This document shows, in pieces, positions 932 through 50,912 of a DNA stretch of 56,773 nt. The stretch is from Verrucomicrobiia bacterium. GTDB lineage: Bacteria; Verrucomicrobiota; Verrucomicrobiia; Limisphaerales; UBA8199. The DNA lies in the NCBI GenBank assembly GCA_035946615.1, contig DASYZB010000037.1:1-56773 (forward strand). The letters run 5' to 3'. The position numbers were made by a program, and so were the translations under genes. Positions within the stretch are counted from its first letter, which is position 1; every line of letters begins with the position of its first letter. The notes under the pieces were generated by a model. The model saw nothing but the letters and a program-made list of their open reading frames with translations. It had not been told where the DNA came from and did not search any database.

Positions 932-2155
932 ATGCGCCCCGCACTCATCAAATCCGCCCAAACGAGTCCGCCAAGCCGCTGGCTTAACCGCACCGTCATC
1001 GGCATTGGGCTCGCGTCGCTGTTCAGCGATTGGTCGCACGAGATGGCTACTACGGTGATGCCGGCTTTTCTGGCGACCATGGGCGTGGCGGCGATTTGGC
1101 TGGGGCTGATTGAAGGCGTTTCCGATGGGCTTTCCAGTTTCGCCAAAATGGGGTCGGGCTATTACACGGATGGTTTGCGGCGACGCAAACCGATTGCTGT
1201 TATCGGCTACGTCATGACTGCTCTAGGCACGGCCGCGTTCGGGCTGGCTACGGCTGCCTGGCATGTTCTGCTCGCCCGCGCGTTTGCGTGGCTTGGCCGA
1301 GGCGTTCGCACGCCAGTCCGGAAGGCCTTGCTGGCCTCAGCCATCACCCCGGAAACCTATGGCCGAGCCTTTGGTTTTGAGCGGATGATGGATACGCTCG
1401 GGGCAATTGTCGGGCCATTAAGCGCATTTGTTTTGCTGCAAGCCCTCAATCACAGGTACCCGCCTCTTTTCGCTTTGACCCTAATCCCAAGCCTGGTAGC
1501 CGCCGGCCTTATCACATTCCTTGTAAAAGAGAAGGACCGAAAGCCGGTTCCTCATATCTCGTTCGGCGCGCGGCTGCGCTCCTTGCCGCCCGCTTATCGG
1601 AAATTCGTGTTCGCGGTCGGCCTTTTTGGACTGGGCGCTTTCGCCCATACGCTCTTAATCCTGCTCGCGACCCAGAAGCTGACTCCCTCACTTGGTCCGG
1701 CTAAGGCCGCCAGCGCCGCTGTTGGTCTCTACGTTTTGCATAATGTCTTCTACGCGTCGTTCGCCTTTATAGGCGGCTGGCTTGGAGATCGCTTTTCCAA
1801 AAGATGGTTGCTTGCCGGCGGCTATCTCCTGGCAGCGGCGATGTCTCTTTGCATCATCATATTGCCGCTAACAATTTGGACGTTCGCCCTCATTTTCGTG
1901 CTGGGCGGAACCAACGCCGCCCTTGAAGAAACCCTGGAAGATTCCCTTTGCGCCGAACTGGTGGGCGAAGAACAGCATGGGATGGCGTTCGGGGTCCTGG
2001 CCACCGTGAACGGAATTGGCGACTTTTTTTCCAGCCTCGCCGTGGGCGTGTTGTGGACAACGGTCGGCATTTCTGTCGCCTTCGGCTACAGCCTGGTACT
2101 ATCCCTGCTTGGCGCAATTTTAGTCTCGACCATCCGTTCGAGAAGCAGAGTGTGA
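932..2155 (+). CDS. Major facilitator superfamily (MFS) transporter
   Basis: About 407 residues from the ATG at 932; an in-frame TTG at 899 would add 11 residues with no membrane or motif content, so 932 is preferred although no clear Shine-Dalgarno precedes it. The protein has about twelve hydrophobic segments and the MFS loop motif between TM2 and TM3 (GYYTDGLRRRKP), with a second related loop in the C-terminal half (GGWLGDRFSKRW). Substrate cannot be told from sequence; this branch is often annotated as a multidrug or sugar-type permease. It lies alone, directly upstream of the hydrogenase relics, and shares no obvious operon partner. Confidence 0.85.
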   Translation: MRPALIKSAQTSPPSRWLNRTVIGIGLASLFSDWSHEMATTVMPAFLATMGVAAIWLGLIEGVSDGLSSFAKMGSGYYTDGLRRRKPIAVIGYVMTALGTAAFGLATAAWHVLLARAFAWLGRGVRTPVRKALLASAITPETYGRAFGFERMMDTLGAIVGPLSAFVLLQALNHRYPPLFALTLIPSLVAAGLITFLVKEKDRKPVPHISFGARLRSLPPAYRKFVFAVGLFGLGAFAHTLLILLATQKLTPSLGPAKAASAAVGLYVLHNVFYASFAFIGGWLGDRFSKRWLLAGGYLLAAAMSLCIIILPLTIWTFALIFVLGGTNAALEETLEDSLCAELVGEEQHGMAFGVLATVNGIGDFFSSLAVGVLWTTVGISVAFGYSLVLSLLGAILVSTIRSRSRV

Positions 2156-2301
2156 CCCGCATAATCCGAAACCCACTTTTTTGCGTTCGTGGCCTGGCCG
2201 GCGCAATGGGGAAACTCCGGCCTGATGACCTTTATCGTGAACCACAGGGTCGCCGAAAATCCTGAAGGGATTTCGCCCTCCAGCCCCGGGTTGCGACCCC
2301 G

Positions 2302-2574
2302 CCCTTTCAACACGAGCTTATTCATTTGAGTGGGCTGATCGTCGCAACTCAAAACAACGCTGCTCGTATTGCGATGAGTGTCGATAAGGCCGCTCGCGCC
2401 TTAATCAAGAAAGGACAGGTCAATGAAGGTTTGTTGAACCTGGTCGAACTGGCCTTTCGCGCATGCGACCCGTGCTTCGGGTGCGCGACCCACGCTTTGC
2501 CCGGCCATTTGCCCATTTCGATCAGTATTTACGACTCCCAGCGCGCGCTGGTTCGGCAACTGACACAATCCTGA
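2302..2574 (+). pseudogene. C-terminal relic of a cytosolic (group 3-type) [NiFe] hydrogenase large subunit
   Basis: Only the last ~90 codons of a hydrogenase large subunit survive. The readable stretch includes LIVATQNNAARIAMSVDKAA and then RACDPCFGCATH, the L2 motif whose two cysteines hold the Ni-Fe site and whose His marks the cleavage point for maturation. A short tail (about 25 residues) follows and ends in TGA, as in precursors that need an endopeptidase. The N-terminal ~350 residues, including the first CxxC pair, are absent: upstream sequence in this frame reaches a stop at 2263-2265 without recognisable homology. The matching maturation protease relic lies just downstream in the same frame. 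Subgroup (3b, 3c, 3d) cannot be decided from the piece. Confidence 0.8.
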
Positions 2575-2697
2575 GCAAATCGGCTTGTGCCCCGCCTCTC
2601 GAGCTGCGTGTTCCCTAAATCCAAGTCTGTTTTGAAAACCCTCCCCGCCTCTTTGCTCTCCTTCCCTGAGTCATCCAGGAAAGGCAGTCTGGCCGAA

Positions 2698-2997
2698 ATC
2701 CCACAGCCCGGGAAACGAACCCTGCTCCTGGGGTTTGGTAACGACCTGCTCGCCGATGACGCCATTGGCCTGCGCATCGCCGCCACCTTACCTCTTTCTC
2801 CCCGCACTTTTTAGGCATCGGAGAAAGTTTTAGCCTTGGGACGCATCCTCGGTTTGTCCGTCCCCAGCGAAGTCAAAATATTCGCGGTAGAAGTGCTGGA
2901 CCCATTCACGGTGTCACTCAAAATGACTCCGGCAATGGAAGCGGCGGTGCCTGCCATTGTTAAGCGAGTGCTGGCAGCCCTTCCAACAGAATCGTAG
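2698..2997 (+). pseudogene. Hydrogenase maturation protease relic with internal deletion and stop
   Basis: Two pieces of a HycI/HyaD-type hydrogenase maturation endopeptidase lie in one frame separated by a TAG at 2812-2814. The N-terminal piece reads RTLLLGFGNDLLADDAIGLR, the family's GxGNxLxxDDxxG start with its Ni-binding acidic residue. The C-terminal piece (from about 2824) reads LGRILGLSVPSEVKIFAVEV followed by DPFT...MTPAMEAAVP, the family's end. The ~70-80 central residues, with the remaining metal ligands, are missing, so the product would be inactive. An 8-bp inverted repeat (2794-2801 with 2820-2827) brackets the junction. An open stretch back to a GTG at 2587 has no family similarity. 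Placement after the large-subunit relic matches usual hydrogenase operons. Confidence 0.75.
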
Positions 2998-3210
2998 GCT
3001 GTCCGTCTTTGGCCCGCTGATTGCTCTTCTAGTGATTCACGCAAATGCGAAACTGTGCTCAGCCCTTAAATTGCCAGGCCCCCAAAGTTCGCCGACTCGA
3101 TGGGGCACTTGCCGCTTCACAGGCGATTTGGCCAGGGGCTCGATTCTGCCTGGAATCCTTGGGCAGAAGTCAACCGTCTCAAGGTGATTTATAAGATTGC
3201 TGCTTCCTTG

Positions 3211-3240
3211 TTGACAATAGACATCCAAAAACCATTTAAT
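3211..3240 (+). promoter_or_regulatory. Candidate sigma-70-type promoter
   Basis: TTGACA (3211-3216) and TTTAAT (3235-3240) are separated by 18 bp in an AT-rich stretch, 26 bp before the ATG of the large exported protein at 3267. The -35 is a perfect consensus and the -10 matches at five of six positions. Verrucomicrobial housekeeping promoters are not well mapped, so this is by analogy. Confidence 0.45.
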
Positions 3241-3266
3241 CTGAATTGGCAGGCGCATAAATTGAC

Positions 3267-5900
3267 ATGAAATTGTCTTACACCCGTTCAATTTGTATCC
3301 TCGTGGCAACATGGCTTTGCTTCCAGCCGCTTTGCTCGATGGCAGCCGTTTCCGTTGGCATCACGCCGTCGATCATCAGCAATACCTACAGCGCGCCAAT
3401 CACGCTGCAAATCAAAGGCTTAACGGCAGGTGACACCGTGGTCGTTCAGAAATTCATCGATGCCAATACCAATGGCGTGTTGGATAGCAGGGACCCTTTG
3501 TGGCAGCAATTTAGTCTCACCGATGGACAGGCCACCGTCATTGGCGGCGTCACGAATTTCAATGTGCCTGGCGATACGGACAACGTGTCCGGACAAATCA
3601 CTGCCCAGTTGTACCTGCAAAATGACTTTTCCCAAACCCTCGTTGGGAAGTACCTTTTTGTCGTTTCCAGTCCGGCTGGTCATTTCACCCCGCTGACTAA
3701 TTCTTTCAGCATTACCAATTTTGGATTTGCCCAAAAGTTTACTGGCAAGGTCATGAACAACGGGACGAACGTTCCGTATGCCTCTGTATTGCTTTTTCAA
3801 CCGTCAAGCGGTGGTGGCGGTGGCGGTGGCGGAATGAACCCCCAGGGCGGTGCGGTGGCTGACCTTTCAGGGGATTATACGATTAAGGCGCCGCCAGGAA
3901 CTTATGCCTTGGTCCCCTTGAGTTTCAATTTCGTTTCGAGCGTTGGCAGCGCGCCCAATTTTACCCTGAGCAGTGGCCAAACCCTCGTCACAAATCTCAG
4001 CAATAGCTTTATTACAGCGACGCAAAGCATCTCGGGCAAACTGGTGGATGCGAATAATTCGAGCCTGGGCATACCCGGCGTGTTGATGGCGCTGGAATCA
4101 TCCAACAGTTTTCTGGCGGTCAGTTCCACGGATACCAATGGGAATTTCAACGTGCCGGTCGTAGCGGATCAGTGGAAGGTTCAGCCATCGGAACAGTCGC
4201 TGGACACCCATGGCTATTTGGCCTCGCAAAACAAGTTAAACGTCAGCACAGCATCCGGCAGCGTCTCGGGCCTCAGCATCGCTTTGCCCAAGGCCACCGC
4301 CCTGTTTTATGGGACAGTGAAGGACAATTCGGGCAATCCTCTGACACACGTTCAACTCTATTCCTCAGACCAGGTTACCGGCAACTACCAAGATAATGGG
4401 GTTTACACTGATCCGAACGGCAATTATGTGGCGCTGGCGCTGGCGGGGACCTGGCGGATAGGCGTTTCCAGCGATAGCAATCCTGCATTTGCCAATTACA
4501 TTTTCTCCCAGGGCACCCAAACAAACGTAAGCGCGGGACAGGCCATTCAAAACAATTTCACCGCTATCGTGGCCACAAACCAGATTACAGGGAACGTCCA
4601 ATTTAACGGCAACCCTGTTTCATCTGTTCAGGAGTTTGCGTACGCAACCATCAATGGAACATTCTATCAGGCCCAGGCAGATACGGACAGCAGCGGCAAC
4701 TATGCGCTGAACGTCCCGAACGGGGCCTGGAGCGTGAATGTGAACTGCCAGGGGGGAAACAACAGCCTGGATAGCATTCTGGGGAGCGGCAATTACCAGT
4801 GCCCGAGCACCCAAAGCGTCAATATCACTAACAACAACGGCGTTGCCAATTTCATCGTTCAACCCTGCAACGGCGTTCAAATCAGCACCACGTCATTGCA
4901 AAACGGACAGGTGAATACCTATTATAGCGTTTTCCTGAACGGCTCCAGTTGCAGCGGCAACTTGACTTGGTCCGTGAACGACCCGCAGAATTTCCCGCCC
5001 GGCCTGACTCTGGGCTCGAACGGCCAGATTTTTGGCACTCCCAGTACGGCAGGGACCTACAATTTTTCGGTGAATGCCAATGATAATAATGGCCATTCCG
5101 CCAACCAGGGTCTTTCGTTGATGATCATTGGCACTCCCTTGCAAGTGACCTCCTCATTCCTGCTCAACGCAACCAACGGCATCTCTTATAACCAGACCCT
5201 TCAAGCCTCCGGCGGAACGCCTCCTTACAATTGGTCCATCCCAAGCTTTTCCGCCCCGCTACCGCCGAATTTAACCCTGGGAAGCAATGGCGTCCTTTCC
5301 GGCACGCCAACCACAAACGGCACATTTTATTTCGACGTGATCGTCACGGACACCGTCAACAATTCAGTCGAAAAAGACGGCCTGGTGCTGAACGTGGTCA
5401 ATCCGCCGCCGGCGGCATTGGTGATCACAAATAATTCACTGCCCAATGGGAATGTTGGCGCGCTCTATAACGCGCAACTGGCCGTGACTGGCGGGCAACC
5501 ACCTTACTACTGGTCCCTGGCGATTGGATCGGCCAATCCGCCGCCCGGCCTTGTAATTAATCCCAACGGCTTTATCTCCGGCACGCCGACAAGCAGTGGC
5601 CTCTTCTCCTTCAAAGTTCAGGCGACTGATGTCAATTCGTCCTCGACCAACAAAGTCTTTGCCGTTTTGATCAATCCAAGGCCCATTCTGCTGTTCTCGG
5701 GCTGGCAGGCAAACCACTTGCAGATGCAGCTTATCGGCGGCTCAAACCAGAACTACACAATCCAGGCAACAACTAACGTGAGCGTTCCGAATTGGGTTTT
5801 GCTTGTCGTGACCAACAGCCCCACAGCCAGTTCCTTCATCGTGACCGATCCCAATCCCACGAACTCACAACGCTTTTATCGCGCGCTGATTGGACCGTAG
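3267..5900 (+). CDS. Large exported protein with carboxypeptidase-regulatory-like and putative Ig (He_PIG) repeats
   Basis: The 877-residue protein starts with a clear signal peptide (basic start, hydrophobic core, cleavage near residue 26). Residues ~30-160 form a beta-rich domain. A run of eight glycines near residue 185 links to several carboxypeptidase-regulatory-like beta sandwiches (about 170-550), each with a SGNY- or NGNY-type strand. From ~555 to 805 there are three putative Ig (He_PIG) repeats, recognisable by PPGLTLGSNGQIFGTPSTAG and two close variants. The last ~70 residues (IQATTNVSVPNW ... QRFYRALIGP) belong to a C-terminal domain shared with three other exported proteins in this window. 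It is probably a cell-surface or secreted structural or adhesive protein; no catalytic motif is visible. A promoter candidate lies just upstream. Confidence 0.85.
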   Translation: MKLSYTRSICILVATWLCFQPLCSMAAVSVGITPSIISNTYSAPITLQIKGLTAGDTVVVQKFIDANTNGVLDSRDPLWQQFSLTDGQATVIGGVTNFNVPGDTDNVSGQITAQLYLQNDFSQTLVGKYLFVVSSPAGHFTPLTNSFSITNFGFAQKFTGKVMNNGTNVPYASVLLFQPSSGGGGGGGGMNPQGGAVADLSGDYTIKAPPGTYALVPLSFNFVSSVGSAPNFTLSSGQTLVTNLSNSFITATQSISGKLVDANNSSLGIPGVLMALESSNSFLAVSSTDTNGNFNVPVVADQWKVQPSEQSLDTHGYLASQNKLNVSTASGSVSGLSIALPKATALFYGTVKDNSGNPLTHVQLYSSDQVTGNYQDNGVYTDPNGNYVALALAGTWRIGVSSDSNPAFANYIFSQGTQTNVSAGQAIQNNFTAIVATNQITGNVQFNGNPVSSVQEFAYATINGTFYQAQADTDSSGNYALNVPNGAWSVNVNCQGGNNSLDSILGSGNYQCPSTQSVNITNNNGVANFIVQPCNGVQISTTSLQNGQVNTYYSVFLNGSSCSGNLTWSVNDPQNFPPGLTLGSNGQIFGTPSTAGTYNFSVNANDNNGHSANQGLSLMIIGTPLQVTSSFLLNATNGISYNQTLQASGGTPPYNWSIPSFSAPLPPNLTLGSNGVLSGTPTTNGTFYFDVIVTDTVNNSVEKDGLVLNVVNPPPAALVITNNSLPNGNVGALYNAQLAVTGGQPPYYWSLAIGSANPPPGLVINPNGFISGTPTSSGLFSFKVQATDVNSSSTNKVFAVLINPRPILLFSGWQANHLQMQLIGGSNQNYTIQATTNVSVPNWVLLVVTNSPTASSFIVTDPNPTNSQRFYRALIGP

Positions 5901-49520: not shown

Positions 49521-49532
49521 ATCTGATTCTCT

Positions 49533-50912
49533 ATGAAAACTACCACTACCCCTTCGGCTGTTTCCCGCCGCCAATTCCTCGCCTCAACGGGCGCCGCTCT
49601 GGCTGTCCCGCTCATCGTTCCCTCCAGCGTATTGGGGGCGGATGGTCACACCCCGCCCTCCGAGCGCGTCGTCATGGGCGCAGTCGGCTATGGCGGCCAA
49701 GGCCCATGGGACACCGACGAGCTGATGAAGGACCCGGTCTGCCAGATGATCGCCGCCTGCGACCTGGATAAAGGCCACCTGCGCCACGCCGTCACTATCA
49801 TCAACGCACACTACGACAACCAGGACTGCCGGGGCTATCACGATTACCGCGAACTGATGGCCCGCGACGACATCGACGCGGTCATGCTCGCGGTTCCGGA
49901 CCACTGGCACGCGCTGATCGCGACCGAGGCCGCCTCTCGCCACAAGGACATCTACGGCGAGAAACCACTGGCGCGCACTATTGCCGAACAGCAGGCCATC
50001 GTCCGCGCCGTCCAGCAAAACAACCGCATTTGGCAGACCGGCTCGTGGCAGCGGTCCGTCGATAACTTCTGGTACGCTTGCGAAATCGTTCGCAATGGAC
50101 TTATCGGCAACGTGACGCGCGTCGAAGTCGGTTTGCCCGGGGGACAAAACAGCGGCCATCCCGGCTTTGACGGCCTTCCGGACCAAAACGGCTGCACCTC
50201 ACCCCCGCAGGAGCTGGACTATAACTTCTGGGTCGGCCCTTCCGAGATGGTGCCCTATGTCCAGTGCCGCGTGCATGGGAACTGGCGCTGGAACTACAAC
50301 ACCGGCGGTGGCCAGCTCATGGACTGGATCGGGCATCATTGCGACATCGCCCACTGGGGACTGGGCTTCGACCATACCGGACCCAGCGAAGTCGAGGTCG
50401 AGCACGCCGAGTTTCCGCCTCCTCGTGCTATTTGGAACACCTCGCCCAAATACCGCATCTCGGCCAAGTATCTAAGCTCTGTGACCGGCTACCCCAATGA
50501 TGTCCAAATGACCATCGCCGGCGCCGGACCAGAGAGTTACCCCGACATTAAGATGGGCTGCAAATGGACCGGCTCCGAAGGCTGGATTTGGGTGGACCGG
50601 GGTGGGTTTGAGTCCTCGGACCCGCGTTGGAAGAACCAGAAGATGGAATTGCCCGATAACCTGCGCAAGGTCCAGCTTTACCGTTCCACCAACCACTGGC
50701 GCAACTTCCTGGAGTGCGTCAAATCGCGCAAGCCGGCCATTACGCCCGTCGAAACGGCGCACCACTCGACAATTCCCGGTCACCTGGGCCTCATCTCCAT
50801 GTTGACCGGCCGCAAGCTCAAATGGAACGTGGCGACCGAGCAGATACTCGATGACCCAGATGCCGCCCTGCTCCTAACTCGGCCCTACCGCGCGCCCTGG
50901 CGCCTGGGCTGA
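49533..50912 (+). CDS. Tat-exported Gfo/Idh/MocA-family oxidoreductase
   Basis: The 459-residue protein has a twin-arginine signal (VSRRQFLASTGAALAVPLIV) and a Rossmann domain with VVMGAVGYGGQGPWDT near residue 48, then DIDAVMLAVPDHWHALIATE and IYGEKPLARTIAEQQ, where the EKP Lys is the catalytic hallmark of the family, and the substrate-domain part GGGQLMDWIGHHCDIAHWGL. Exported members are very common in Planctomycetes and Verrucomicrobia and oxidise sugars or act on glycosides; the substrate here is unknown. It starts 12 bp after glgB and may share its transcript. Its last 39 bp overlap the convergent Spy-like gene. Confidence 0.9.
   Translation: MKTTTTPSAVSRRQFLASTGAALAVPLIVPSSVLGADGHTPPSERVVMGAVGYGGQGPWDTDELMKDPVCQMIAACDLDKGHLRHAVTIINAHYDNQDCRGYHDYRELMARDDIDAVMLAVPDHWHALIATEAASRHKDIYGEKPLARTIAEQQAIVRAVQQNNRIWQTGSWQRSVDNFWYACEIVRNGLIGNVTRVEVGLPGGQNSGHPGFDGLPDQNGCTSPPQELDYNFWVGPSEMVPYVQCRVHGNWRWNYNTGGGQLMDWIGHHCDIAHWGLGFDHTGPSEVEVEHAEFPPPRAIWNTSPKYRISAKYLSSVTGYPNDVQMTIAGAGPESYPDIKMGCKWTGSEGWIWVDRGGFESSDPRWKNQKMELPDNLRKVQLYRSTNHWRNFLECVKSRKPAITPVETAHHSTIPGHLGLISMLTGRKLKWNVATEQILDDPDAALLLTRPYRAPWRLG

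Follow-up and report, generated by a model that had tools for sequence, protein, structure and literature searches.

The window, the whole 56,773-nucleotide stretch of DNA analysed here, very probably contains the 3′ end of a decayed group 3c [NiFe] hydrogenase operon, produced by a deletion between a dispersed repeat and mvhA and by decay of the adjoining protease gene. Three features make up the locus (C numbers denote contigs of this genome and G numbers other genomes):

2246..2338, + strand: 5′ portion of a dispersed repeat, truncated at 2338; the copies on C73 and C18 run past this point
2335..2574, + strand: relic of an MvhA/VhuA-type large subunit, last 79 codons and stop, recognized by homology to seven intact same-family genes
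2575..2997, + strand: relic of a hydrogenase maturation protease, recognized by homology to intact proteases adjoining MvhA in four same-family genomes

The large-subunit relic and its relatives

The stump holds, in frame, the L2 motif DPCFGCATH, followed after its His by a tail of 26 residues that ends at the stop at 2572–2574; the intact motif and cleavage tail of the original prediction are thus both present. The translation of 2302–2571 matches the C terminus of intact large subunits in same-family genomes at up to 75% identity (E 2.6e-39), a significant match to hydrogenases for the 90 codons initially delimited, and the best ORF-level match of the stump reaches E 5e-42, with 76% identity across 84 amino acids. 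Judged by sequence comparison, this likeness is far above chance, and the homology to intact family genes bears out the proposal that the stump derives from the C terminus of a cytosolic group 3 hydrogenase. The proposed span, 2302–2574, needs trimming, as hydrogenase sequence begins at ~2335 and 2302–2338 is dispersed repeat, with 2335–2338 fitting both. In an alignment that begins at the first homologous codon, the 79 residues show 70–78% identity to seven intact family orthologues, compared with 35% for the organism's own hydrogenase on C18. Most of the gene is indeed lost, but the share is ~85% rather than the ~80% at first estimated: 79 of ~510 codons are left, and ~15% of the 514-codon frame of the intact G006 orthologue survives. 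The open frame around the stump (2266–2571, 102 codons) starts in repeat DNA, an 82-amino-acid ORF containing the stump spans 2326–2574, and a full-length frame and the N-terminal L1 motif are absent. A Pfam search of the stump and both protease pieces gave no match, and an Rfam search of 2100–3300 returned nothing.

To which subgroup did the enzyme belong? In G006, homologues of MvhG, MvhD, HdrA, HdrB, and HdrC (the last recognized by Fer4 domains only) precede the large subunit, whose best NCBIfam match is VhuA (E 4.6e-118, under the curated cut-off) and whose best PDB matches are 7t2r (7t2r_D) and the MvhA chain of 5odc. Because this intact relative combines VhuA and MvhA matches with an Hdr-Mvh operon context, we assign the stump to group 3c (MvhA/VhuA, Hdr-linked) and to neither HyhL nor HoxH, which settles on MvhA the three-way comparison that had been suggested. 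The family matches were computed; the group names (3c, HyhL and HoxH types) are background.

Our family set comprised 13 genomes, this one included, and the relatives compared belong to other genera. Some match to translated 2302–2571 was found in 11 of the 13 (own included). Seven of the 12 other genomes have an intact orthologue, 66–75% identical to this translation, with the L2 region fused within a single frame of 506–585 amino acids; the weaker matches (32–47% identity) are mainly to a second hydrogenase type. The intact loci are HdrA-MvhD-MvhG-MvhA operons, mostly with HdrC and HdrB. A weak C-terminal match on C11 of G012 carries two stops in six-frame translation.

Across the order, 40 of 320 genomes match at E 1e-15 or better, giving 42 matches, 37 of them in frames of at least 506 amino acids. 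Five frames are short: contig ends truncate those of G139 and G124, and those at G006:C61 and G118:C1:1084714 are frame-broken copies within otherwise long operons, whose genomes each have a second, intact copy. The window stump is the sole match of the 42 whose upstream operon is gone. The G006 case (C61, 4348–5833) is a second group 3c large subunit in two overlapping frames (340 and 166 amino acids matched), split by a frameshift or an assembly error. G118, a single-contig genome, has a second HdrA-MvhDG-MvhA operon (C1:1078000–1092000), nearly complete, in which the reading frames of MvhG and MvhA are broken several times; these breaks may be sequencing errors. A search of a genome collection with the C-terminal alignment found at least 592 loci, of which 583 were confirmed. 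Among the best 80 of these 583, 78 cover at least 448 MvhA positions and the other two start close to a contig end; by hand count, 60 of the 80 have a protease homologue inside the fetched stretch. None of the titles retrieved from the literature concerned this relic, and a report may exist in print.

The stump itself reads cleanly, with no stop and no frameshift across its 79 codons. Compared with eight other copies it has three unique residues (M39L, Y44C, V63I). Since intact copies, each left out in turn, have 0–4, a range that includes the stump's three, its substitutions do not demonstrate decay. In a wider set of 26 other rows, the Tyr before DPC is conserved in all 26 and replaced by Cys in the relic only, and Leu at position 39 recurs once. 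Either the stump is young or unique-residue counts do not separate it from a constrained gene. Most pairs approach saturation at synonymous sites (pS 0.39–0.82), and trees built on 76–78 columns are mostly unresolved, with the stump's neighbour differing between them.

The repeat breakpoint and the broken protease

The window repeat consists of an outer repeat and a nested element (2299–2338) delimited, at other places in the genome, by the inverted sequences CCCCGCCCTTTC and GAAAGGGCGGGG. Positions 2246–2338 are 94% identical to C73:4865–4958 and 87% identical to C18:21051–21143. These two copies share more than 100 bases of further sequence beyond the point at which the window becomes hydrogenase, and the window copy ends inside the nested stretch. 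As the breakpoint at 2338 lies inside a repeat that continues at other sites, the deletion would have cut repeat and gene alike. Up to 4 bp at the junction (CTGA, 2335–2338) are common to the repeat and mvhA.

Copies of the dispersed repeat lie at C73:4865–5011 and C18:20998–21143 and on C57, C46, C100, C1, and C33. The inner stretch occurs at five places in the genome, twice at full length. Since other repeat copies are without it, the part bounded by CCCCGCCCTTTC and GAAAGGGCGGGG looks like a small nested insertion; it is ~90 bases long, and copies with and without it coexist in one genome. The repeat shows no unusual folding (z −1.19).

Directly after the stump's stop begins a second relic, absent from the original prediction. 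Its N-terminal part (~2713–2780, KRTLLLGFGNDLLADDAIGLRI) is 57–73% identical to intact family proteases and keeps the N-terminal motif GFGNDLLADDAIG; its C-terminal part, ending at the stop at 2995–2997, is 50–61% identical. Against NCBIfam TIGR00072 the two pieces score E 0.0017 and 0.0016, each under the curated cut-off. In an alignment with four intact proteases, 56 middle columns are missing from the relic, then one residue, then two (PH, present in 4 of 4 intact rows), and an in-frame TAG stands at 2812–2814. Two conserved residues that bind metal in HybD, Asp in the VVD motif and His in TPH, fall in gaps. Every gap is a multiple of three, which we counted against decay. An intact protease lies directly 3′ of MvhA in four of the seven intact family loci (G002, G003, G011, and G012); the stretches fetched from G005, G006, and G008 yielded no protease homologue.

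The rest of the genome and the site

If a group 3c hydrogenase was lost, what remains of H2 metabolism? A joined HdrC/HdrB/HdrA/MvhD/MvhG/MvhA query of 2196 amino acids found no HdrABC or MvhD part in this 96%-complete genome; its matches were the stump and the C18 hydrogenase subunits (30–38% identity) only. The operon partners MvhG, MvhD, and HdrA (and HdrB and HdrC), present in intact relatives, are thus absent from window and genome. A PF00374 search of the genome recovered the C18 large subunit only, which is complete (475 amino acids) with its own L2 motif, DPCLSCSTH. Its best PDB match is 7t2r_D (E 2.9e-160), and that of the C18 flavoprotein subunit is 7t2r_B (E 3.5e-195). C18 encodes an intact HydBCASL/Hox-like [NiFe] hydrogenase whose nearest PDB relative is the 7t2r enzyme, presumably the structure of NiFe-HydABCSL. 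PMC8880783 describes NiFe-HydABCSL as coupling reversible H2 oxidation to ferredoxin reduction. Since the C18 hydrogenase is intact, the organism most likely still handles H2, and the loss of H2 metabolism first proposed for this lineage does not hold.

The site itself is less informative. The MFS gene upstream has orthologues (72–73%) in two other family genomes only, and no hydrogenase lies beside either in the fetched stretches (the G004 orthologue is at a contig start). No relative compared carries a group 3c operon at this site; the intact operon sought in sister genomes exists in seven of them, but not beside the MFS gene. Among window ORFs of at least 100 codons, only the Gfo/Idh/MocA oxidoreductase gene at 49527–50909 strongly matches a gene near an intact operon (61% identity to a G006 gene ~6 kb from the group 3c operon). 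It sits 47 kb from the stump, and because the family is so large the match may be chance. That the lineage once carried a hydrogenase here, as originally proposed, is likely, and so is loss of the operon in place, but synteny, whether of the MFS relatives or of the intact operons, lends no support. The 877-residue exported protein at 3267–5900 (CarboxypepD_reg repeats) has a 59% identical paralogue at C9:37908–40484; its homologues elsewhere in the family are partial.

Origin of the relic and comparison with known systems

The ancestral operon would have comprised HdrA-MvhD-MvhG-MvhA, probably with HdrC and HdrB, followed by the maturation protease; stump and broken protease are homologous to the ends of the relatives' operons and lie in the same order. 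We infer a deletion, as one event, that ran from the repeat into mvhA and would have removed the upstream operon together with ~85% of mvhA. The protease, which an internal deletion and a stop have disrupted, would have decayed through separate events. The stump would be without function, and the lineage would have lost Hdr-linked H2 oxidation with electron bifurcation while keeping its other [NiFe] hydrogenase. The relic is an ordinary pseudogene, formed by the usual decay of genes.

Could the stump instead be a functional split subunit, like the VhuU of methanococci, joining a large subunit that lacks the L2 motif? VhuU is its top NCBIfam match (E 1.2e-7), no stop interrupts its frame, and it shows conservation like that of intact genes. 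The match, however, reaches 31.4 bits where the curated cut-off is 70, the genome has no MvhA body lacking its C terminus (the single PF00374 protein is the complete one on C18, with an L2 motif of its own), relatives have the region fused in one frame, the stump's frame starts in repeat DNA and the adjoining protease is destroyed. We consider a split subunit extremely unlikely. Equally hard to credit is that the 82-residue frame is translated and selected as a free peptide, for instance one that acts in the manner of VhuU or serves as a decoy while the C18 enzyme matures.

It is also conceivable that the lineage never had the intact operon, and that a fragment came to lie beside the repeat through horizontal transfer or recombination. 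The lack of synteny with relatives and the weakly supported tree placement of the stump would fit such an arrival. Against it, two adjoining genes are kept in operon order, and since the group 3c gene is intact in 7 of 12 other family genomes, ancestral presence followed by loss is the simpler account; we regard arrival as a fragment as improbable. An assembly artefact, in which a chimeric contig joined at the repeat hides an operon that is intact in the organism, might be suspected from the position of the junction and from an assembly of 161 contigs. Yet the rest of the operon is missing from the 96%-complete genome, damage to the protease lies more than 400 bases from the repeat, and a join via shared repeat would not give a copy that is cut at the junction when other copies run on. 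We give a chimera next to no credence and favour deletion and decay of a resident operon.

Read as deletion and decay, the locus would record how one member of a family lost its Hdr-linked group 3c hydrogenase, whose gene 7 of the 12 other genomes retain, with a breakpoint still readable within a repeat element. Sequencing of congeners could possibly date the loss. The locus also calls for caution: in a genome with a second hydrogenase, a stump does not mean that H2 metabolism was lost.

How does the relic compare with known systems? Like VhuU, the separate C-terminal selenopolypeptide of the Vhu hydrogenase, the stump is a short frame with the L2 region; it differs in scoring under the VhuU cut-off, in having Cys where VhuU has Sec, and in having no partner large subunit in the genome. 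The protease relic matches the HyaD/HybD/HycI family in its N-terminal part, with GFGNDLLADDAIG, and in its C-terminal part, but is without the central third and the conserved His and carries an in-frame TAG. The MvhADG-HdrABC complex (PDB 5odc) carries out Hdr-linked H2 oxidation with electron bifurcation. Whereas that system has an L1 motif, a small subunit and Hdr partners, the window keeps only the last 79 codons of its large subunit, and these align to the C-terminal end of MvhA/VhuA, with the L2 motif and the tail.
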